Shown here one piece after another: positions 1 through 52,450 of a DNA stretch of 64,000 bases (position 1 is its first letter; each line of letters begins with the position of its first letter). The notes under the pieces are model-generated. The model saw only the letters and a program-made list of their open reading frames with translations, was not told where the DNA came from and did no database searches. Both the position numbers and the translations under genes were made by a program. Source of the stretch: Edaphocola aurantiacus (GTDB lineage: Bacteria > Bacteroidota > Bacteroidia > Chitinophagales > Chitinophagaceae); contig NZ_VOSI01000005.1 in assembly GCF_019797745.1 (NCBI RefSeq), positions 1 to 64,000 on the forward strand, given 5' to 3'.

Positions 1-83
1 CCTCTTCCCATTCCGAACAGAGCAGTTAAGCCCATCATGGCCGATGATACTGGTGTATTCCGGGAAAGTAGGTAGCTGCCATA
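1..83 (+). rRNA. rrf: 5S ribosomal RNA, 3' part
   Basis: The window opens inside a 5S rRNA gene. The stretch CCGAACAGAGCAGTTAAGCC and the GGGAAAGTAGGTAGCTGCC end are the conserved B/C and D/E helices and 3' strand of bacterial 5S. The 5' part, about 30 nt, lies outside the window. The gene is followed directly by a strong terminator, so this is the end of an rRNA operon. The exact 3' end is uncertain by a few bases. Confidence 0.93.
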
Positions 84-92
84 TTTATTTTA

Positions 93-41701: not shown

Positions 41702-41825
41702 TAATAGAGCCGTGTGGACATATAAATGAACTCATTGCATCAATGGAAGTGAGGCGATCTTTATCGGTATTTTTTTAACTGAGTCTCCGCTTAAAGGAAA
41801 TAAAGACTAGCATTATGATTTAAGT

Positions 41826-42012
41826 AGCCTATATATCTTTTGCTACCTTTTGCCTTGATGCAAAAGGTAGCAAAAGATATATAGGCTGTATAAATCCCTG
41901 GCTAAAAATCAATGTGTCGGTCGGTCGCAAACCAGACTCACTGCGCTCAGACAGTGGTTTCCGACTTTATCGACCGAGCCAATGATTTTATGAACGCCGG
42001 ATTTATAAGGCC
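41826..42012 (+). repeat. Intergenic repeat element, copy A (hairpin plus 130-bp core)
   Basis: A 27-bp perfect inverted repeat (arms 41826-41852 and 41861-41887) is followed by and overlaps a 130-bp core, 41883-42012. The core matches the reverse complement of 52210-52339 with about five substitutions and no gaps. The hairpin heart GCTACCTTTTGCC...AAAAGGTA is also shared. No protein-like frame is conserved between copies. The bases 41702-41825 before it show nothing notable. Confidence 0.85.
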
Positions 42013-42042
42013 TTTCGAGCGATCTGTACAGTACGGATCGCT

Positions 42043-42186
42043 TATTGTTTTCATCACAGCGATAGCCATTTTGGAATGGAGTTGCGATCGTTGAGCACCG
42101 AACGGATCAAACGTTAAGCTCAAACGATCAATGCACGCAATGGTACAAAATGGCGGTGCTATGCAATCGCCTTGATGAAAACAAAG
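42043..42186. repeat. Imperfect inverted repeat after copy A
   Basis: The segment GTTTTCATCACAGCGAT...CCATTTTG near 42045-42070 recurs inverted at 42150-42186, and GATCGTTGAGC (about 42088) pairs with GCTCAAACGATC (about 42119-42130). It is an imperfect cruciform-like region that might be the second half of a larger intergenic element. Confidence 0.5.
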
Positions 42187-42358
42187 GCATTTTTGGTCCT
42201 TTTGTTGCCGGACAAAAGGACGGATAAGGTCGGTTACTGCTTGCGGATAGTCAGTATCCTTTTAACAAAATCTTCTCTGAATCGGGCCATAAAGGACCGT
42301 GCACTCCGCGGGCTTCTCCTTAACTTTGCGACACTTCAAAAAAAGTTTTCAATCTGTC

Positions 42359-42703
42359 ATGAACTTCAGGAAGCTAAGTCACATACTGCTACCTTTACTG
42401 ATCTTCTTCGGCCTTCAGGCCGACACTATTGAGGGCTTCATACAGCAACAAACATTGCAGCAATGCAGTGTCTCCAAACACAAAAAGACCAAGCAAAACC
42501 AGGACGATCCTGATGACGATGCGGCCATTGTCCGTAAAGTCCATCTTCCGCAGGCTTTCATCGTAGAGCCGTTTACTCCGCTGGAAGATCGTGTTGCTGT
42601 CAGTTACCCAAGCCTTATCACCGGCCATCATGCCTGTCCCGTAAATGCCCGGGCCATGCAGGAAGTCTGCTTCGGTTTACTCTTTCTCCAGCATTTGTTT
42701 TAG
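42359..42703 (+). CDS. Small secreted protein upstream of RND operon
   Basis: A 114-aa frame starting at an ATG that begins a clear signal peptide (NFRKLSHILLPLLIFFGLQADT). The mature part is hydrophilic in the middle (KHKKTKQNQDDPDDDAA) and has no recognised domain. It lies 165 bases before the RND adaptor gene on the same strand. Small exported proteins of this kind often precede efflux operons, but the role is unknown. It could instead be a chance frame at the end of the repeat region. Confidence 0.45.
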   Translation: MNFRKLSHILLPLLIFFGLQADTIEGFIQQQTLQQCSVSKHKKTKQNQDDPDDDAAIVRKVHLPQAFIVEPFTPLEDRVAVSYPSLITGHHACPVNARAMQEVCFGLLFLQHLF

Positions 42704-42868
42704 TCAGCTGCATCCCTTAACCAGCCTCTGTTCCAGAGGCATGTAGACCTATGCATAGCGCCTGCGCTTCGCATCAGGTATTCTATTACTATATTTTTAA
42801 TTCCTGTACCGGAGGCTTTGTAAGAAGTCGCCTGTATGGCTATTCGTAATTTTCCTTTTATCAATACA

Positions 42869-43963
42869 ATGATCAGAAATTATTGGATGTATATCCTTGC
42901 AGCCGCTATATTAGCAACAGGCTGCGGCAATGAGCGTTCCGCAAAAAATGAAGACAAGGTAACCGTGTATCCCGTGTTCCATCCCCGTCAGAAAGACACC
43001 GTGCTTAATATTCCCTATGTAGCCGATATACAGGCTTATAAGAATGTAGAAGTCCATGCCCGCATTGAAGGTATGCTGGAGAAAATATACATCAAAGAAG
43101 GACAGGTTGTGCATAAAGGACAGCTGCTGTTTAAAATAAACGACAGTGAACTGCAGATCGAGCGTACCAAAGCCGATGCTGCTTATAAAAGTGCAATGGC
43201 CGATGCCCGTGTGGCGCAGGTAGAGGTAGAGCGTGTGCAGATACTTGTCGATAAAAAGATCATTACCAAGACAGAACTGGATCTGGCTAAAGCCAAGTAC
43301 AGGGCCATGATGGCTAAAGCAGATGTGGCCCTGGCCGATAAATCGGCAGTAGAAAAACGCATTTCTTATACGCATATCGCTTCACCATTCGACGGAATAG
43401 TAGACCGTATTCCGCTCAAAGAGGGTAGTCTGCTCGCCTCCAATTCCCTGCTCACCACTATATCCGATATTCATTCCGTATTTGCTTATTTCAATATCAG
43501 TGAGAACGAGTTTTTTAAAATCCGTAGCCATGGCGATACACAGGAGGTTTTATCTATAAGCCTTATCCTGCCCGATGGCTCTACCTACCCGCACCACGGT
43601 AAGCTGGAATCTGCAGAGAGTGAGATCGATGCCAGCACCGGTAACATCGCCTATAAAGCAAAGTTTGAGAACCCGGAAAAGATCCTGAGACACGGAGCAT
43701 CCGGCAGGCTCTTAATCACAAGGCCAATGAAGCAAGCCATGCTCATGCCGCAGAAAGCCGTGTTTGAAATACAGGATAAGAATTATGTATTCGTCGTAGA
43801 TGACAAGGGTACCGTACGCCAGCGCAGTATTGCAGTAGCCCAGCGTGTGGCAGACTACTACCTGATTAAGGGCGGTCTGGATACCAAAGATAAGGTAGTA
43901 CTGGAGGGCATACAGTCTTTAAGAGAAGGACAGGTGATCAAAACAAGGCAGTCACAGCTCTAA
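42869..43963 (+). CDS. RND efflux periplasmic adaptor (membrane fusion protein)
   Basis: The 364-aa lipoprotein (signal ending LATGC) is the HlyD/AcrA-like adaptor of a tripartite pump. It has a barrel-sandwich lipoyl half VHARIEGMLEKIYIKEGQVVHKGQLLFKI, an alpha-hairpin of about 60 residues (LQIERTKADAAYKSAMADARVAQVEV and on), the second lipoyl half ISYTHIASPFDGIVDRI and a C-terminal beta-barrel/MP domain. ATG at 42869 is chosen nearest the signal; one 11 codons upstream is possible. It is first of three genes: adaptor, permease, outer membrane channel. Confidence 0.94.
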   Translation: MIRNYWMYILAAAILATGCGNERSAKNEDKVTVYPVFHPRQKDTVLNIPYVADIQAYKNVEVHARIEGMLEKIYIKEGQVVHKGQLLFKINDSELQIERTKADAAYKSAMADARVAQVEVERVQILVDKKIITKTELDLAKAKYRAMMAKADVALADKSAVEKRISYTHIASPFDGIVDRIPLKEGSLLASNSLLTTISDIHSVFAYFNISENEFFKIRSHGDTQEVLSISLILPDGSTYPHHGKLESAESEIDASTGNIAYKAKFENPEKILRHGASGRLLITRPMKQAMLMPQKAVFEIQDKNYVFVVDDKGTVRQRSIAVAQRVADYYLIKGGLDTKDKVVLEGIQSLREGQVIKTRQSQL

Positions 43964-44009
43964 AATGCCGGTTTATTTACTATACGATTAACAAACGAAT
44001 TTCAATATA

Positions 44010-47000
44010 ATGGTAGAAACTTTTATCAGAAGACCGGTATTATCGCTCGTGATATCGATCATCATAACCCTGATCGGCGTACTGGCCATGTTCCAGTTGC
44101 CGATCACCCAATTCCCCGATATCGTACCGCCCTCGGTTTCGGTAACCGCACGCTATACCGGCGCTAATGCCGAAGTGTCAGTCGATGCCGTAGCCGTTCC
44201 TTTAGAGAAGGCCATCAATGGGGTGCCCGGCATGACCTATATGTCCACTGTTTCTGGCAATGATGGTGTGACCATGATCACCGTCTATTTCGAAGTGGGT
44301 ACCGATCCCGATGTAGCTGCCGTAAACGTGCAGAACCGCGTCACCACTGTGCTGGATGAACTGCCCGAAGAGGTGATCAAAGCCGGGGTAACCACCGAGA
44401 AAGAGGTAAACAGTATGCTGATGTACCTCAACATCACCAGTACCGATAACAATGCAGACGAAGATTTTATTTACAACTTTACCGACATCAATATCCTTAA
44501 GGAATTAAAGCGTATTGATGGGGTAGGCCGTGCCGAGATCATGGGCCAGAAAGATTATGCCATGCGGGTATGGCTGAAGCCTGATAAACTGCTGGCTTAT
44601 AATGTATCTGCCGACGAAGTGATCGAAGCCCTGCGCCAGCAGAACGTTTCCGCAGCTCCGGGTAAGACCGGAGAGAGCTCCGGAAAGGCGCATAACCAGT
44701 TGCAATACGTACTGCGCTACACCGGCAAGTTCTCAGAGCCGGATCAGTACGGCAATATCGCCATCCGTTCCCTGAGCGATGGTTCTATACTGAAGCTGAA
44801 AGATGTGGCCGATGTAGAATTTGGTGCCATGAGTTACAGTATGGTGTCCAAGAGTGGTGGTCGTCCTGCCGCTTCGATCATGATCAAGCAGCGTCCCGGC
44901 TCCAATGCCAGCGAGGTAATTGATAATATCAAAGCCAAGATGGGCGAGCTTAAAGAAAGTTCCTTCCCTCCGGGTATGGAGTTCAGTATGGCATATGACG
45001 TATCCCGTTTCCTGGATGCTTCTATTTCAGCCGTACTCAAAACCCTGCTGGAAGCCTTTTTGCTGGTAGGTGTCGTCGTGTTTATTTTCCTGCAGGACTG
45101 GCGTTCGACCCTCATTCCCGTACTGGCTGTACCCGTATCGCTTATCGGTACCCTGGCCTTTATGATGATGCTGGGCTTCTCCATCAACCTGCTGACCTTA
45201 TTCGCACTGGTGCTGGCCATCGGTATCGTGGTCGATAATGCCATTGTGGTGGTTGAGGCTGTGCATGTGAAAATGACGGAAGAACATATGCCGCCACTCG
45301 AAGCCACGATTGCAGCAATGAAAGAAATTACCGGGGCCATCATTGCCATTACCCTCGTGATGTCTGCCGTGTTTATACCGGTAGCCTTCCTGAGCGGACC
45401 TGTGGGTGTATTCTACCGCCAGTTCTCTCTTACACTGGCCTTTGCTATTGTCATCTCCGGGATTAATGCCCTTACGCTTACCCCGGCCTTATGTGCCATT
45501 ATGCTGAAGCACATTGATCCTTCAAAGAAAAAAGGATGGCTGCAACGCTTCTTCAACGGCTTTAACCGTGGTTTTGATAAAACCACACAGGGTTATCAGA
45601 AAGTGCTGAAACGTACCGCAGGCAAGCGTTTGCTTACTATGGGACTATTAGTCGCTTTCTTCGTAGCCACCTGGGGTGCTGCGGCTATATTGCCCGGAGG
45701 CTTTATCCCGACAGAAGACCAGGGTATGATCTATGTCAATGTAACGACTCCGCAGGGTGCTACAGTAGAACGTACAGAGACGGTATTGGATGAACTGAAT
45801 AAAATGACCGGGAAGGTCGGCGGTGTGGAGAGTGTAACCACACTGGCCGGCTACAGCCTTACCAATGAGATTGCCGGTGCCTCTTATGGCATGGCTATGA
45901 TCAACCTCAAAGGCTGGAAAGACCGTAAGCAAACGGTGAATGAAGTAATGGACAGCATCAATGTGCTGATGGCACGGATTACCGATGCGAAGATTGAAGT
46001 CTTTGCCCCGCCTACGGTTCCGGGCTTTGGTAATACCAGTGGTTTTGAACTGCGCCTGCTCAATCGTGGTGCCGGTACGGTAACAGAGACATCAGAGATC
46101 ACTAAAGAATTTATAGAAGCTATCGAGGCTACACCGGAGGTGACCAATGTCTTTACCAGCTTTGATGCCACCTTCCCGCAATACATGATCCATATTGATT
46201 ATGATATGGCAGCGAAGAAGAATGTAACGGTAGATAATGCGATGAATACCCTGCAAACCCTGCTGGGTAGCTATTACGCAACTAACTTCATTCGTTTCGG
46301 GCAGATGTATAAAGTAATGGTCCAGGCTGCACCGGAATACCGCCGCGAGCCGCAGGATGTATTGCATCAGTATGTCAAGAATGCCCATGGAGAGATGGTG
46401 CCTTTCTCAACCTTTGCCCGCATAGAACGGGTATATGGCCCGGAACAGCTGACCCGCTATAATATGTACACCTCCGCCATGATCAATGGAGAGCCTGCAC
46501 CGGGCTACAGCAGCAGCGATGCGATTAAGGCGGTAGAGCGTGTGGCAGCAGAGAAGCTGCCCCGTGGTTATGGTTTTGACTGGAGTGGTATGACCCGTGA
46601 AGAGATCCTGTCGGGCAACCAGGCGGTGTATATCTTCGGGCTCTGCCTCATATTCGTATACCTGCTGCTGGCCGCACAATACGAAAGTTTCCTGTTACCT
46701 CTACCGGTGATCCTGAGTTTACCGGCCGGTATTTTCGGTTCGTTTATCTCCCTGAAACTCTTCGGACTGGACAATAATATCTATGCACAGGTAGCCCTGG
46801 TCATGCTCATAGGCTTGCTGGGTAAGAATGCCATCCTGATTGTAGAGTTTGCGATACAGCGCCATAAAGACGGGCTCACCATTATGCGTGCCGCAATCGA
46901 AGGCGCAGCGCAGCGTTTGCGTCCGATCCTCATGACTTCCTTTGCCTTTGTCGCCGGACTCATTCCGCTGTGTATGGCCAGTGGTGCAGGGGCTATGGGT

Positions 47001-47192
47001 AACCGCTCTATCGGCGTGGCCGCAGCCGGGGGCATGCTCATCGGTACCTTATTCGGTGTGCTGGTTATCCCGGGACTCTACGTGCTGTTTGCCAGCCTGG
47101 ACAGGAAGAAGAAAAAGAAAGTGGTACCTGTCTCCGTGCAGCACCAGGTTTCAGATGAATTTAAAAAAACAGAAAATGCACATAAAAACTAA
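44010..47192 (+). CDS. RND efflux permease, HAE1 family (AcrB-like)
   Basis: The 1060-aa permease has the full AcrB plan: 12 membrane helices and two large periplasmic loops. FIRRPVLSLVISIIITLIGVLAMFQLPITQFPDI opens it in pattern. GNRSIGVAAAGGMLIGT closes the last helices. In helix 4 the proton-relay motif reads VVDNAI (Asp409, Asn410), where AcrB has two aspartates. The Lys of helix 10 is present in GKNAILIVEFA. It exports drugs or other amphiphiles with proton antiport. The last 17 bases overlap the channel gene. Confidence 0.95.
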   Translation: MVETFIRRPVLSLVISIIITLIGVLAMFQLPITQFPDIVPPSVSVTARYTGANAEVSVDAVAVPLEKAINGVPGMTYMSTVSGNDGVTMITVYFEVGTDPDVAAVNVQNRVTTVLDELPEEVIKAGVTTEKEVNSMLMYLNITSTDNNADEDFIYNFTDINILKELKRIDGVGRAEIMGQKDYAMRVWLKPDKLLAYNVSADEVIEALRQQNVSAAPGKTGESSGKAHNQLQYVLRYTGKFSEPDQYGNIAIRSLSDGSILKLKDVADVEFGAMSYSMVSKSGGRPAASIMIKQRPGSNASEVIDNIKAKMGELKESSFPPGMEFSMAYDVSRFLDASISAVLKTLLEAFLLVGVVVFIFLQDWRSTLIPVLAVPVSLIGTLAFMMMLGFSINLLTLFALVLAIGIVVDNAIVVVEAVHVKMTEEHMPPLEATIAAMKEITGAIIAITLVMSAVFIPVAFLSGPVGVFYRQFSLTLAFAIVISGINALTLTPALCAIMLKHIDPSKKKGWLQRFFNGFNRGFDKTTQGYQKVLKRTAGKRLLTMGLLVAFFVATWGAAAILPGGFIPTEDQGMIYVNVTTPQGATVERTETVLDELNKMTGKVGGVESVTTLAGYSLTNEIAGASYGMAMINLKGWKDRKQTVNEVMDSINVLMARITDAKIEVFAPPTVPGFGNTSGFELRLLNRGAGTVTETSEITKEFIEAIEATPEVTNVFTSFDATFPQYMIHIDYDMAAKKNVTVDNAMNTLQTLLGSYYATNFIRFGQMYKVMVQAAPEYRREPQDVLHQYVKNAHGEMVPFSTFARIERVYGPEQLTRYNMYTSAMINGEPAPGYSSSDAIKAVERVAAEKLPRGYGFDWSGMTREEILSGNQAVYIFGLCLIFVYLLLAAQYESFLLPLPVILSLPAGIFGSFISLKLFGLDNNIYAQVALVMLIGLLGKNAILIVEFAIQRHKDGLTIMRAAIEGAAQRLRPILMTSFAFVAGLIPLCMASGAGAMGNRSIGVAAAGGMLIGTLFGVLVIPGLYVLFASLDRKKKKKVVPVSVQHQVSDEFKKTENAHKN

Positions 47193-48621
47193 ATATATAC
47201 TGGCCGGAACCCTTAGTCTTGGAGTACTGTCCGGCTGTAAGATACCTCAGAATATACCGGTGCAGCAGGCGCAGACAATGCCTGCTGCCTATCCGCAGCA
47301 TACGGCCGATACGATTACCGTAGCCCAGCTGAAGATCAATGATTTTTTTACCGATATCCATTTGCAGCAACTGATTCGTGCGGTATGGGATCATAACCTT
47401 GATCACCGTATTGCCGCCCATCAGCTCGATATTGCACAGGCATATCTTAAGGCACGCAAAGGTGCACTCTTGCCTGCGGTGCAAGCAGGTGTGCGCTCTT
47501 CGGGTACCCGTTATGGTAAGTATACAATGGAGGGTGTGGGCAACTTTGATACCAATCTCTCTCCCAATATAGAAGATGGACAGCGCATCAATACTACAGT
47601 GAGCCCTGATTTCTGGCTGGGACTAAATGCCACCTGGGAGGTAGATCTCTGGGGTAAACTGGCACAGATGAAAAAGGCGGCACAGCTGCGCGTGCTCTCC
47701 AGTGAGCAAGGCAGGGCATTGCTCCGCTCCGCACTGACGACACAGACAGCAGCACTGTATTACGAACTCGTCACCCTGGATATTGAAGTAGATATCCTGC
47801 AGGAGAACATTGTTTTGCAGCAGAAAGCACTGGAAGTAGTAGAGGTACAGAAGGAAGTGGGCCGTGCTACAGAGCTGGCCGTACAGCAGTTTAAAGCGCA
47901 GTTACTCAATACAGAAGCTACTTTATTTGAAGTAAAGCAGCAGATCCGCGCAGCGGAAAATCAGCTGAACCTGTTGCAGGGCCGCTATGAGGGAACTATT
48001 GCCCGCAGCCATAGTTTTGATGTAAAGGGTTTGTCTCACCTTGTTAAACTGGGACAACCCAATCAGCTGCTGACTTATCGTCCCGATATCATGTCTGATT
48101 ATTATGAGCTGGAGGCTACTCATGCTGATGCAAAGGCTATTCGTGCGGCATTCTTTCCAACCCTGCAGGTATCGGCCTACCTGGGGCTGAATAGTTTTAA
48201 TCCGGAAAAGGTATTTAACCCCGCTTCTCTTATTGCACAGTTACTGGGCGGACTAACCGCCCCGGTCTTTGGGCAGCATCAGTTGCGGACCGGTTTTAAA
48301 GTAGCACAATCTCAGCAGGAAATTGCTTTCCTGCGTTATCAACAGACGGTAAACCGTGCTTTCCAGGAAGTAAAGACCCTGGTGAGCGAAATGGACAATA
48401 ACCAGAAGGTACTGGACCTGAAAAAGCTGGAAACCGAGGCGCTCTCGCGAAGTGTGGATATTGCCAATGAAATGTATGTAGCGGCATATGCAAATTACCT
48501 GGAGATCATAGCCGTACAAAAAAGTAAACTGGCTGCAGACCTGGATCGCCTGCGTGCACGGCGCAACCAGATGCAGATTATGATACAGCTCTACAAAGCC
48601 CTTGGTGGCGGCTGGAGCTAA
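47176..48621 (+). CDS. Outer membrane efflux channel (OprM/TolC-like lipoprotein)
   Basis: The 481-aa protein starts with a lipoprotein signal (LSGC, Cys about residue 20), then two OEP repeats typical of OprM/NodT channels. Its helices are marked by LDIAQAYLKARKGALLPAVQAGV and LEATHADAKAIRAAFFPTLQVSAYLGLNS; NATWEVDLWGKL is the strand-helix turn. ATG at 47176 was chosen among three in frame because the signal begins there; it overlaps the permease gene by 17 bases. It forms the outer membrane duct of the pump and is followed by an intrinsic terminator. Confidence 0.94.
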   Translation: MHIKTKYILAGTLSLGVLSGCKIPQNIPVQQAQTMPAAYPQHTADTITVAQLKINDFFTDIHLQQLIRAVWDHNLDHRIAAHQLDIAQAYLKARKGALLPAVQAGVRSSGTRYGKYTMEGVGNFDTNLSPNIEDGQRINTTVSPDFWLGLNATWEVDLWGKLAQMKKAAQLRVLSSEQGRALLRSALTTQTAALYYELVTLDIEVDILQENIVLQQKALEVVEVQKEVGRATELAVQQFKAQLLNTEATLFEVKQQIRAAENQLNLLQGRYEGTIARSHSFDVKGLSHLVKLGQPNQLLTYRPDIMSDYYELEATHADAKAIRAAFFPTLQVSAYLGLNSFNPEKVFNPASLIAQLLGGLTAPVFGQHQLRTGFKVAQSQQEIAFLRYQQTVNRAFQEVKTLVSEMDNNQKVLDLKKLETEALSRSVDIANEMYVAAYANYLEIIAVQKSKLAADLDRLRARRNQMQIMIQLYKALGGGWS

Positions 48622-48646
48622 ACTTTGTTTATTAGTGTTTGTGTTG

Positions 48647-48674
48647 GTGCTGCCTGTTCAGGCAGCACTTTTTT
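48647..48674 (+). terminator. Intrinsic terminator of RND operon
   Basis: GTGCTGCC / GGCAGCAC stem with TGTTCA loop, followed by TTTTTT. Confidence 0.93.
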
Positions 48675-48765
48675 GATTTATTCCTTCAAGTTGATTAAAT
48701 CACTGTTTCTATCTTAGTATTAAACAAATAAATGCTAGTTTAGCTTCTTTTCTATTTTGTCTATT

Positions 48766-49518
48766 ATGAAAAATGCAACTGTCCTGTTTTGTATTTGTTT
48801 GTTTATGGCTTGTGCTAATGCCACTCCTCAGGTTGTCGTGACCAGAGTTGACCAGCCTGCTGCTCCTGTAAATGATACTTTAAATAAAGCCGCGCTATCT
48901 GTTGTTTTAGATGCCATTGAGAAGCTACCTAATATAAAAGCAGATGGAGATAAAATCTATATAGATAATCGTAACATTACTATCCAGGCTACGGTTGAAC
49001 AAGATGTAGCACATGAAGGAAACTGGTTCCTGGCAGCTAATTTTGTTACTTCATATGATAATTTAAAATTGAGTTTTGGTTCAGTTGGTATAGGCAACAA
49101 CAGGATGGAGGCGATGCAGGTTTGCCTGGAAGAATGGTATGGAGCCTTTGGTGTATCATTCATCAACATGATTAAAGATAGTAGCTATGTACGGTTGGAT
49201 GATAAGAAAGTATTTGCGGGATTAATGGGAATCAGAGGAGAGTTACCGGATGGTAGCTGGCTTAATGGCAGTGATGCTACGACACTGAAGATAATGAATA
49301 ATCTACAGTCATTTATATCAGCCTCTTCATCACATATTACATCTGTTGATCTTAAATTGTTGATTAATAACGGAGTACTTGAGGATGGTGAATGTAGAAT
49401 TGACAATAAACATTCACCAGAAGTATTGAATGCATTGAAAAAAATGAAATGGCCTGTTTCAGCTTCACCATTTATGTTCAAACAGTTTTATCTGATCAAA
49501 AAAGGAACATCTAAATAA
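48766..49518 (+). CDS. Hypothetical lipoprotein
   Basis: A 250-aa lipoprotein (signal MKNATVLFCICLFMAC) that I do not confidently recognise. The body has a strand-rich N-terminal part (GDKIYIDNRNITIQATVEQD), then LSFGSVGIGNNRMEAMQVCLEEWYGAFGVSF, a pattern of proteins that sum a surface signal over a conserved GxG...A..ALE.W region. There is a C-terminal beta-rich tail. ATG at 48766 was chosen at the signal; a TTG lies three codons upstream. It follows the RND terminator and stands alone before the 21-bp repeat array. Confidence 0.65.
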   Translation: MKNATVLFCICLFMACANATPQVVVTRVDQPAAPVNDTLNKAALSVVLDAIEKLPNIKADGDKIYIDNRNITIQATVEQDVAHEGNWFLAANFVTSYDNLKLSFGSVGIGNNRMEAMQVCLEEWYGAFGVSFINMIKDSSYVRLDDKKVFAGLMGIRGELPDGSWLNGSDATTLKIMNNLQSFISASSSHITSVDLKLLINNGVLEDGECRIDNKHSPEVLNALKKMKWPVSASPFMFKQFYLIKKGTSK

Positions 49519-49529
49519 ATTTTGCGCTA

Positions 49530-49736
49530 AGCAAATTTAATTATGAAGCTATCAGCATGAATTATGCTCTCGCCAGAGTGGATTATGACACGTTTTAAGA
49601 TAATTATGGTACTGTTAGGGTAGAATATGATCTCGTCAGTGCAGATTATTACGCCTTCAGAATGGGATATGCTTTCGCCAGAACAAATTATGTTATGATC
49701 AGAATGGATTATGCTTCCTGTACAATGAGTTATGCT
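49530..49736 (-). repeat. 21-bp tandem repeat array coding heptapeptide repeats
   Basis: About ten degenerate 21-bp units span this stretch, in exact register with no indels. On the minus strand they lie inside an open frame (49527-49817, 96 codons) and translate as seven-residue units such as SIIHSDH, NIICSGE, VIIHSGE and SIIHADS, with Ile at position 2 in every unit and usually at position 3. The first 27 codons of the frame are not repetitive. It may be a minisatellite or a small repeat protein. The flanking 49737-49913 holds nothing else notable. Confidence 0.8.
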
Positions 49737-49913
49737 TTTCTCTGAAGAATTTGTAATATACACATATCTCCACGCCACTCCATTTGCTCGAAATGCCGGA
49801 AAGAATCGCTTCGTCATGTCGACCTTGTGGAGACATCTCCTTTAGTGTTTGTCAGGAGATGTCTTCTATCTTTTCACTTTTGAATTTTCACTTTTGAATT
49901 CAGCCTTCACGCC

Positions 49914-50372
49914 TTACAACCGCTGCTGCAATTGCTGTGCCCATTTGATGAGCTGCTGCTGCTGTGTACTGTTCAGCTGCGCATCACGATGCACCAGGGT
50001 ATAAGACTTCAGGGGCATTTCATGTCGCTGTATGGTTTCTACAACTTCTTCCAGTTTGTGTTTTTGTTTGTCCGCAGTGTAGGTTGCAAACTCATCAAAG
50101 TTCAGGTGTTCTTTTCCTTCTTCTATATGATGATCCAGCCACCAGCCCAGGGGTTGCAGTTTGAAATACCAGGGGTATTGTGTATTGTTGGAATGGCAGT
50201 CGTAACAGCTGGTCTTCAGTATCTGCTGCACATCTGCCGGTACGTCGAAATGCTTCTCTATAGCGGTATGTGTCGGATGGGAATGAATATTAAGTGCAGG
50301 TTGAAAAAACTGCATGGCTATAATTGCGGCCAGTGTACCTAAAAGTATTTTTTTGCGGGTTGTAGGGGTCAT
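49914..50372 (-). CDS. Haem-binding domain protein (cytochrome-like)
   Basis: The 152-aa protein has an N-terminal membrane anchor or signal (KKILLGTLAAIIAMQFFQP), then a haem-binding domain with LKTSCYDCHSNNTQYPWYFKLQPLGWWLDHH and a distal Met in RHEMPLKSYTLVHRDA. CxxCH is the c-type haem attachment motif; the Met or His may be the sixth ligand. This matches the Bacteroidota haem_bd family, small cytochromes of unknown partner. It is transcribed alone. Confidence 0.92.
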   Translation of the reverse strand: MTPTTRKKILLGTLAAIIAMQFFQPALNIHSHPTHTAIEKHFDVPADVQQILKTSCYDCHSNNTQYPWYFKLQPLGWWLDHHIEEGKEHLNFDEFATYTADKQKHKLEEVVETIQRHEMPLKSYTLVHRDAQLNSTQQQQLIKWAQQLQQRL

Positions 50373-50506
50373 GATTGTATGGAATAAGCAAATGATAATG
50401 TATCAGCAAAGTCTAAACCCACATGTCTTCATTATACCACAAGATAGCACATTTTCCTTTTATATAGCAATAATAATAAATTAATATCACTACATATATT
50501 ATTGCT

Positions 50507-51094
50507 TTAGGTACGATCTTTGTCCAGCCATTTGCCCACTTCCGGAGCTTCATAATTGCGCATCTGCTGCAGCAGGGTATCGATATGTTCATCAGCGATC
50601 AGCATATCCCTGTTCTGTTTGCTGAGGAAACCCTGGTGCATCATAGCATCGGCCATGGCCAACAACGGATCGTAAAAGCCCTGTACATTTAACAGACCCA
50701 TAGGCTTGCGATGCAGCCCCAGCTGCGCCCAGGTCAGCATTTCAAACAATTCTTCCATCGTACCGAAACCACCGGGCAGGGTAATGATGCCGTCGGAAAG
50801 TTCATGCATTTTGGTTTTGCGCTCGTGCATGGTGTCAACCAGTATCAGATCGGTAAGGCCCTCATGTGCGATCTCTTTGGTGCGCAGAAATTGAGGGATC
50901 ACCCCAATCGCCTGACCGCCTTCATCCATCACGCCATCGGCTACAGCGCCCATCAGTCCTACTTTAGCGCCACCATAGATGAGCTGTAGTCCTTGTGCCG
51001 CAAGGGTTTTGCCCAGGGCATATGCCTGTTGTGCATAGACAGTTTCTGCACCGGAGCTGGAACCGCAGAATACGGCGATACTGGTAATATTCAT
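50507..51094 (-). CDS. LOG-family nucleotide 5'-monophosphate phosphoribohydrolase
   Basis: The 195-aa Rossmann-fold protein has the LOG motif PGGFGTMEELFEMLTW, with GLMGAVADGVMDEGG upstream and SSGAETVYAQQAYALGKTLAAQ at the start. Family members cleave the N-glycosidic bond of AMP or cytokinin ribotides. In bacteria the physiological substrate is often a purine or pyrimidine nucleotide. It probably shares a transcript with the downstream tRNA-binding protein on this strand order (LOG is downstream of it). Length is typical. Confidence 0.93.
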   Translation of the reverse strand: MNITSIAVFCGSSSGAETVYAQQAYALGKTLAAQGLQLIYGGAKVGLMGAVADGVMDEGGQAIGVIPQFLRTKEIAHEGLTDLILVDTMHERKTKMHELSDGIITLPGGFGTMEELFEMLTWAQLGLHRKPMGLLNVQGFYDPLLAMADAMMHQGFLSKQNRDMLIADEHIDTLLQQMRNYEAPEVGKWLDKDRT

Positions 51095-51115
51095 ATGTAT
51101 ATGTTTTAGTGTTGT

Positions 51116-51457
51116 TTATCCGATTTTCAGTCCGTTATCTACTGATTTGTCGATCGTTAAAAGTGTTACCTCATCTGCATTTACAGCACCCAGTACCAGG
51201 CACTCACTTTTGATATTAGCGATCTGTTTGGAGGGAAAGTTAACCACCGCAATGACCTGTTTGCCTACTACCTCTTCCGGTACATATCGTTTGGTGATCT
51301 GCGCTGAACTTTTGCGGGTGCCCAGTGCTCCGAAATCGATCAATAATTTATAAGCTGGTTTGCGCGCTTCCTCAAATACCTCCGCACCAATAATCGTGCC
51401 TACGCGCATATCTATTTTCTCAAAATCATTCCAGTTGATCAGTTCTTTTGTATCCAT
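51116..51457 (-). CDS. csaA: tRNA-binding domain protein, CsaA-like
   Basis: A 113-aa single tRNA-binding (EMAP/CsaA) domain: DFEKIDMRVGTIIGAEVF opens the OB-fold, RKSSAQITKRYVPEEVVGKQVIAVVNFPSKQIANIKSECLVLG follows in pattern. CsaA is a dimeric export-related chaperone in Bacillus; the biochemical role here may be tRNA or peptide binding. It starts where the GNAT gene ends, sharing one base (TAATG), so the two are coupled, with csaA downstream. Confidence 0.93.
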   Translation of the reverse strand: MDTKELINWNDFEKIDMRVGTIIGAEVFEEARKPAYKLLIDFGALGTRKSSAQITKRYVPEEVVGKQVIAVVNFPSKQIANIKSECLVLGAVNADEVTLLTIDKSVDNGLKIG

Positions 51458-52002
51458 TATTTTTCTTTATTGTAATGCTGTTTATCCAGGGCATACCAGT
51501 TAATTGGTCTGCCATTTTCATCCTCAAATACTTCTATAAACCGGAAACCCAGTTTGCCCAATACATGCTGCGATGCTGCGTTATCTACATCCGTCATGGC
51601 GTAGAGGTTGTCTGTGTTCAATTGAGTAAAACCATAGTCCACAATAGCTTTACCGGCTTCTGTTGCATAGCCTTTACCCCAGTGCTTCTGTTTGAAACGA
51701 TAACCAAGCTCATAGAAATGCTGGTGCCCGTTGAAGGGTTCCGGAAAGAACTTCAGTCCAGCCCAGCCAACGCATTCACCATTCAGCTTATCGACTACCG
51801 CCCAGCGGGCAATACCATAATCGCGATATTGCTGTTGCAGCATATCGATCATTTTATATTGCTCCTCTATCTGTTTCAGAGGTTGATTGTAGATATAGCG
51901 GTGTACATCAGGATCAGAATCCATTTCGAAAAGATCGGTGGCATCCGCTTCAATTATTTCTCTCAGCAATAGTCGTTCGGTTTCCAGGAGTATATCAGGC
52001 AT
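51457..52002 (-). CDS. GNAT acetyltransferase, RimJ/RimL type
   Basis: A 181-aa acetyltransferase: LLETERLLLREIIEADATDLFEM opens as in RimJ/RimL, ELGYRFKQKHWGKGYATEAGKAIVDYGF contains the acetyl-CoA loop, and DNAASQHVLGKLGFRFIEVF the typical late motif. It acetylates an N-terminus or small amine; the substrate is unknown. ATG at 52002 is selected since the fold begins there. It is the first gene of a set GNAT-csaA-LOG on the minus strand. Confidence 0.92.
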   Translation of the reverse strand: MPDILLETERLLLREIIEADATDLFEMDSDPDVHRYIYNQPLKQIEEQYKMIDMLQQQYRDYGIARWAVVDKLNGECVGWAGLKFFPEPFNGHQHFYELGYRFKQKHWGKGYATEAGKAIVDYGFTQLNTDNLYAMTDVDNAASQHVLGKLGFRFIEVFEDENGRPINWYALDKQHYNKEK

Positions 52003-52141
52003 GGTGTATTTTGAAATGAGGTATCCGTAAAGATAAGTGTTTTGTGACAATCGGGTTGGTTATGGTATTTTTATGAAATCATTTCAGGCGAAATTTATTG
52101 TAACTGAATCAATAATTTTGATAGTCCGTTTGAGCTTACCT

Positions 52142-52162
52142 TTCGAGCACCTCAGGGTACAA
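52142..52162 (+). repeat. Dispersed short repeat, copy 2
   Basis: Contains CACCTCAGGGTACAA and matches 11740-11760 at 20 of 21 bases; it lies 48 bases from the intergenic repeat copy B. Confidence 0.5.
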
Positions 52163-52209
52163 AACTTTCAGTTATTGAGGCACCAACTAAAATGGGACAT
52201 CGCTGGACT

Positions 52210-52383
52210 GGCCTTATAAATCCGGCGTCAAGAAAATCATTGGCTCGGTCGATCAAGTCGGAAACCACTGTCTGAACGCAGTGAGTCTGGTTTGCGACCG
52301 ACCGACACATTGATTTTTAGCCAGGGATTTATACAGCCTTGATTTTTTTGCGGTACCTTTTGCATCAAGGCAAAAGGTAGCAA
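52210..52383 (-). repeat. Intergenic repeat element, copy B (inverted relative to A)
   Basis: The 130-bp core 52210-52339 is the reverse complement of 41883-42012 with about five substitutions. Beyond it the hairpin heart (52354-52381) is conserved. The outer stem differs in sequence from copy A yet still pairs (GATTT against AAATC), which is compensatory change. The element occupies most of the 477-base gap between the GNAT and RibD-like genes. Confidence 0.85.
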
Positions 52384-52450
52384 ATCAAAATAAAGCGGAA
52401 TAATATTTGTTTTCTGAAAGTAGCTATTCATTCGAAAACACCCCAATCCT

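Follow-up and report, generated by a model that had tools for sequence, protein, structure and literature searches.

Two intergenic repeats raised the question of what kind of sequence has been copied between the genes of Edaphocola aurantiacus. They lie in a stretch of 64,000 nucleotides (contig NZ_VOSI01000005.1, positions 1 to 64,000; hereafter the window), for which an original prediction had reported two inverted copies of a 130-bp element, each beside a hairpin, and had suggested either a miniature mobile element or a family of structured RNAs. Here, we found with high confidence that both repeats are copies of a 479-bp miniature inverted-repeat transposable element (MITE) that has spread between genes in the genus of Edaphocola flava (Chitinophagaceae). 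Very likely, this MITE was moved in trans by a transposase, which we infer to be of the IS1595 family, and its interior was a structured passenger.

Copies of the element and signs of movement

The repeat itself proved real: positions 41883-42012 and the reverse complement of 52210-52339 aligned without a gap and with exactly 5 substitutions, where about five had been noted. However, these coordinates represent only part of each copy (full extents are shown in Table 1). Both hairpins were also recovered by RNAfold. The hairpin of copy 1 was a single unbroken 28-bp stem (-45.6 kcal/mol); in copy 2, the 10-bp heart was retained and the outer stem was bulged (-18.7).

The genome search for further copies that had been proposed gave a clear answer. 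A nucleotide search with window positions 41826-42060 matched 40 separate forward places in the same genome, which ruled out a chance match; the copy number is at least 40 (40 of 74 candidates were scored), so the absence of further copies is excluded. The hairpin CTTTTGCCTTGATGCAAAAG occurred 37 times in this genome (21 forward, 16 reverse). Alignment of the copies defined an element of ∼479 bp, starting with ACTGAGTATCCGCTTAAAGGAAACAAAG and ending with inverted ACTGACTATCCGC, with 13-bp terminal inverted repeats (ACTGASTATCCGC) at both ends. A consensus fold built from 70 near-full copies of three genomes showed, besides the terminal repeats, H1 as the left hairpin, H2 as the long palindromic core, H3 as a short hairpin, H4 as a second long hairpin and H5 as the right hairpin. 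Internally deleted derivatives of ∼98-160 bp had kept both ends and lost the middle. No transposase was found in the MITE, and the sole sizeable frame, 102 amino acids long in the E. flava copy L111, had no transposase call. By a simple frame-based count, the genes on either side of the 40 copies were convergent in 19 cases, tandem in 16 and divergent in 5.

The core could be identified in 4 of 59 related genomes, all of the same genus, and in none of the other genera of that sample; a longer query added fragments in the related genome G003 and diverged pieces in G004. A search of a named genome collection, which may omit the window's own records, returned 20 stretches with the left-end pattern, all from E. 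flava or Taibaiella sp. KBW10. No published description of the element was found in the open-access literature, where some queries were narrow phrases.

The check for flanking duplications, also proposed earlier, favored mobility. A perfect 8-bp direct repeat flanked 28 of the 65 near-full copies with both ends, whereas re-pairing the flanks among copies gave on average 0.59 and at most 5 such repeats in 2000 trials. Exact repeats of other lengths were rare among the 65 copies (6 bp, 1; 7 bp, 4; 9 bp, 1; 10 bp, 0), and the target sites were 94% A+T. We then selected 12 insertions with clear perfect duplications and searched two sister genomes for their joined flanks. In E. flava HME-24, an empty site with a single target was present for four of them (L010, L005, L008 and L025, the last one base short), four others had an insertion between the flanks (L013, L019, L020 and L032, the last with a shorter insertion), one (L022) was unclear, and no orthologous match was found for three (L002, L011 and L014). 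E. flava lacks copy 1 at the orthologous position.

It should be noted that some observations fit insertion less well. A perfect duplication was missing at 37 of the 65 copies, although several fit after a shift of 1-2 bases. Copy 1 had no target duplication; since the E. flava site is ∼15 bp longer, the duplication was probably lost with a small deletion. Copy 2 had no clean empty site, the surrounding 631 bp being missing in E. flava. Overall, the proposed miniature mobile element is supported by its inverted ends and 8-bp duplications, by sites that are empty in a sister species, and by a transposon that could plausibly serve as helper (described below).

Table 1. Features of the two MITE copies in the window
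Feature	Coordinates	Strand	Basis
Copy 1, complete MITE, 478 bp	41778..42255	+	Profile match 1-479 of 479, E 2e-168; both terminal repeats found
Left terminal inverted repeat ACTGAGTCTCCGC	41778..41790	+	
Right terminal inverted repeat ACTGACTATCCGC	42243..42255	-	
Left hairpin, copy 1 version, 28-bp stem, loop CTTGAT at 41854-41859	41826..41887	+	
Palindromic core (module A) TATAAATCCCTGGCTAAAAATCA ... TGATTTTATGAACGCCGGATTTATA	41883..42014	+	Consensus fold helix H2; cross-genus arm covariation
Short hairpin H3	42018..42042	+	Consensus fold, profile match
Long hairpin H4	42045..42184	+	Consensus fold, profile match
Right hairpin H5 CTTTTGTCCGGCAACAAAAG ... CAAAAATGCC; minus-strand build same as left hairpin	42190..42226	-	
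Copy 2, truncated MITE, profile positions 3-248 of 479	52198..52430	-	E 2e-73
Copy 2 pseudoknot-type hairpin: stem, loop CTTGAT, A-rich linker, ATCAAGG	52337..52379	-	

A candidate helper transposon

The search for a helper transposase, another step suggested at the outset, led to a 14.7-kb transposon in the same genome (G000:C3:246386-261063; L343:2001-16678). It has two identical 28-bp ends facing each other and is flanked on both sides by TAATTGAT, an 8-bp duplication. Close inside one end lies a 319-amino-acid transposase of the IS1595 family (NF033547, 187 bits against a cut-off of 75; PF12762; PF12760). The left 28 bp of the MITE equaled the transposon end at 25 of 28 positions, an agreement that concerns one transposon in one genome. 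The transposon is inserted in the left end of the MITE L017: the left flank of this MITE, TTTATTTA, resurfaces at the far side of the transposon, whereas the right flank of the MITE is TTTATTTT. IS1595 elements duplicate 8 AT-rich bp, and such duplications were seen here at the MITE, at the 14.7-kb transposon and, in L111, at an unrelated IS1595 element. On the basis of these sequence comparisons, we propose with moderate confidence that the transposase of the 14.7-kb transposon is the helper.

Several results weigh against this assignment. The right end of the MITE agreed with the transposon end at only 11 of 13 positions, with little in common beyond the first 13 bp. E. flava has as many MITEs, yet no complete transposon was seen in it: the place examined held a 240-bp piece of the end, and the IS1595 gene there had no recognisable second end next to it. 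In addition, the IS1595 element in L111 has ends of its own and is merely nested in the MITE. A different transposase, for example one since lost, might therefore have moved the element, as the imperfect right end and the situation in E. flava would suggest. We consider this rather unlikely, given that the left ends are nearly identical and that 8-bp AT-rich duplications recur at the MITE, the transposon and the unrelated element.

The IS1595 gene inside the E. flava MITE L111 was rejected as helper, as its element is bounded by GGCATTAATATAC/GGCACTAATATAC and has produced its own 8-bp duplication, CTATTTAT, inside the MITE. We also searched genomes G000-G004 for transposase-bearing elements between ACTGASTATCCGC ends with at most one mismatch (ends with two or more differences would escape); apart from the 14.7-kb transposon, each site that we followed up turned out to be a MITE end, a solo end or part of a coding sequence. 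The 240-bp end piece in E. flava (L344:2001-2240) was flanked by TTATATAA on both sides and had only a weak second end, which could possibly reflect one-ended or cryptic-end transposition. Among the passengers of the 14.7-kb transposon were a TIR-domain protein, which matched the defence-candidate model PDC-S66 and ThsB, a response-regulator fragment and a retroviral-type aspartyl protease domain.

The structured interior within and beyond the genus

The original prediction had relied on the outer stems of the left hairpin, which differ in sequence and still pair, as a sign of selected structure. These stems do pair in both window copies, but no covariation of the outer stem was observed within the genus. 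We counted the contiguous pairs that lie outside the heart CCTTTTGC in 107 hairpin contexts, some of which are the same copy read in reverse and some of which come from G003 and G004 (a few each). Two such pairs were present in 50 contexts, 5 in 37 and 22 in only one, namely copy 1 of the window. In this copy, a complement of the left arm stands in place of the usual right arm (...CGCCAAAAAATCAAGGCTG). Most likely, the perfect outer stem arose by a template switch in which one arm was recopied from the other. A complication is the E. flava copy L114, whose right arm resembles that of copy 1 without a matching left arm (7 pairs); thus, the switch may predate copy 1, or an exchange may have followed. 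The replacement also removed the downstream partner ATCAAG, and the pseudoknot of copy 1 was thereby lost. A pseudoknot scan of the window matched only the hairpin of copy 2 (Table 1), with no match in 5 shuffled sequences.

Strong covariation was observed across genera. Within the family, 34 of the 394 genomes had the same hairpin, and these represent 21 of 101 genera. A pattern without a loop condition was present in 25 of the 395 genomes from the phylum, which represent 12 of 170 genera. The reversed-pattern control gave 0 in the family search and the control 0 in the phylum search, and as counts of exact patterns these numbers are lower bounds. The loop-free pattern was used to draw 94 instances from 43 genomes or contigs. 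In these, the 6-nt loop paired with a downstream segment at a fixed distance: all six pairs were Watson-Crick in 67 instances and five in 21. The last base of the loop formed a Watson-Crick pair in 84 instances (T-A 37, A-T 37, C-G 10), against a permutation mean of 35.7 and a maximum of 54 in 5000 permutations, and the loop-closing pair in 88 (mean 44.2, maximum 60). After collapsing to 62 distinct types, the values were 52 for the last base (permutation maximum 35) and 56 for the closing pair (maximum 42). In the related genome G003, loop and partner were wholly exchanged (CAGGCA/TGCCTG). The right hairpin of the MITE has the same pseudoknot-type build on the minus strand (CCGGCA ... TGCC). 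This loop/partner covariation appears to be of the kind found in an H-type pseudoknot.

A downstream module, GCTAAAAAT ... ATTTTCTTAACGC with small variants, was common to 38 instances in 22 genomes or contigs, of which 4 were nearly identical instances from the own genus; the motif had been widened to what the sequences show, as a narrower one gave only 8. The arms around GCTAAAAAT/ATTTTCTTAACGC vary freely, yet they pair with their own partners. Their summed duplex energies of -289 and -153, compared with permutation means of -126 and -48, were reached by none of 5000 permutations. In contrast, covariation within the genus was weak, with two-sided change in 31 of 152 pairs and 480 cells broken.

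The interior of the MITE belongs to a wider structured family of Bacteroidota, which elsewhere lacks these ends and is apparently undescribed. Rfam reported only a 5S ribosomal RNA (rRNA) for the window at the gathering threshold and only a tRNA for 11 loci at E <= 1. The 5S rRNA gene occupies window positions 1-84 and is cut by the window start.

Several arrangements of the hairpin were also observed. In a number of Bacteroidota genomes (L311, L312, L313, L316, L320 and others), hairpins formed intergenic arrays in the same orientation with a spacing of 240-460 bp, and G427 and G712 had a module array in apparently the same gene context. In several genera (L238, L261, L265, L103), the hairpin was immediately preceded by a further palindromic module, TGGTCGCTCGCTGGCCTGTAAA ... 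TTTACAGGC. In Chitinophagaceae genomes (L249, L250, L256, L257), the module downstream of the same hairpin was of a second type, GATCGCTCCGCGC ... GCCACCCCAGGTG. Integron-like cassettes, suggested by the arrays, were rejected: the units of L311 were tandem repeats including the spacer, with no frame of at least 90 amino acids between them. In L314-L316 and L318, the arrays were surrounded by ordinary genes. A phage origin was likewise dismissed, as no phage record was found; one plasmid record matched (Haliscomenobacter hydrossis, 12% of the query at 83.6%), and the hairpin pattern occurred in 18 stretches of viral contigs, which were used in the loop/partner and arm covariation tests.

Whether the interior acts as RNA is a different question. 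The proposed family of structured RNAs gains from a structured interior that covaries across many Bacteroidota genomes, and loses the outer-stem evidence cited for it, as the long stem was seen in 1 of 107 contexts. If the copies were non-coding RNA genes or cis-regulators that had spread only incidentally, one could account for the strong helices of the consensus fold, the covariation of loop, partner and arms across genera, and the lower variability of paired than of unpaired columns within the genus (4.1% versus 14.7%). The A-rich linker is also that of H-type RNA pseudoknots, in which such a linker follows a long stem, a geometry that fits the plus strand. However, the genus copies contained about as many G-T as A-C cells (177 versus 198), without an excess of G-U on either strand, and thus point to RNA on neither. 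Across genera, A-C exceeded G-T on the plus strand (24 versus 7, in related and non-independent sequences), which would, if anything, favor the minus strand. Moreover, copy 1 of the window has lost the pseudoknot, and no Rfam family matched the module in the 11 loci. We therefore regard an RNA family with incidental spread as possible but doubtful.

A repeat of the repetitive extragenic palindromic (REP) type, moved by a Y1 transposase (TnpAREP/RAYT) acting on single-stranded hairpins, would also be intergenic and multicopy and could have a loop-complementary segment. For TnpAREP genes of Bacteroidetes, Quentin et al. (2018; PMC6006769, section on subclass 2.6) report 'atypical secondary structures' on both sides, further copies of which lie at other places in the genome. 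Nevertheless, the genus element has inverted ends and 8-bp duplications, 3 of the 10 hairpin-bearing genomes (G002, G004, G166) gave no match for Y1 genes (PF01797), only 1 of 15 Y1 loci had a pseudoknot match (L279), and the palindromes beside the 10 of 15 Y1 genes that were read, including that of the own genome, differed by eye. Such an origin is thus very improbable.

Proposed scenario and comparison with known systems

We propose that a transposase would act in trans on the short terminal inverted repeats of the MITE, and that the element would be cut and pasted into AT-rich 8-mers between genes, most often convergent ones, with duplication of the 8 bp. The enzyme would be the IS1595-family transposase of the 14.7-kb transposon, which has nearly the same left end. 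The interior would be a passenger, that is, the genus version of a structured element found without these ends across Bacteroidota, and the outer stem of copy 1 most likely arose by recopying of one arm from the other. A more specific version, to which we give about an even chance, sees in the interior the first branch to be recognised of a family that extends across Bacteroidota (H-type-pseudoknot-like hairpin plus GCTAAAAAT/ATTTTCTTAACGC internal loop with free covarying arms). The family would work as folded RNA or single-stranded DNA and form tandem intergenic arrays in several genera, and in Edaphocola it would have become a MITE through capture by IS1595-type ends.

On the basis of these results, two odd repeats become a mobile family with a testable helper, and a structured element with strong covariation and no Rfam entry is seen to recur across many genera of Bacteroidota, where it often forms same-orientation arrays. 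Should the module prove to be a functional RNA or a single-stranded DNA signal, it would represent a new class for study; as a passenger, it would illustrate the intergenic spread of folded sequence by a MITE.

The helper candidate resembles IS1595-family transposons in its family transposase, zinc ribbon, passenger genes and 8-bp AT-rich duplication. It differs in its length of 14.7 kb and in carrying a TIR-domain gene among others, and its ends start with ACTGAGTCTCCGC, whereas the nested IS1595 element of L111 starts with GGCATTAATATAC. The module shares with the H-type pseudoknots of structured RNAs a stem, a loop pairing with a downstream segment and an A-rich linker; unlike them, it is a candidate RNA without an Rfam match. 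Like REP, bacterial interspersed mosaic elements (BIMEs) and other TnpAREP palindromes, the Edaphocola element is a many-copy extragenic palindromic sequence, but it is 479 bp long, has inverted ends and 8-bp duplications, and lies apart from Y1 genes in the loci examined (compared with PMC6006769 and PMC3733652). Finally, the MITEs BrickBuilt, MITE293 and MITE700 of Porphyromonas gingivalis, as presented in PMC4596501, are likewise non-coding and multicopy Bacteroidota elements with terminal inverted repeats like those of a resident insertion sequence, whereas the Edaphocola element has, instead of an internal minisatellite, four large hairpins and a module common to other genera.

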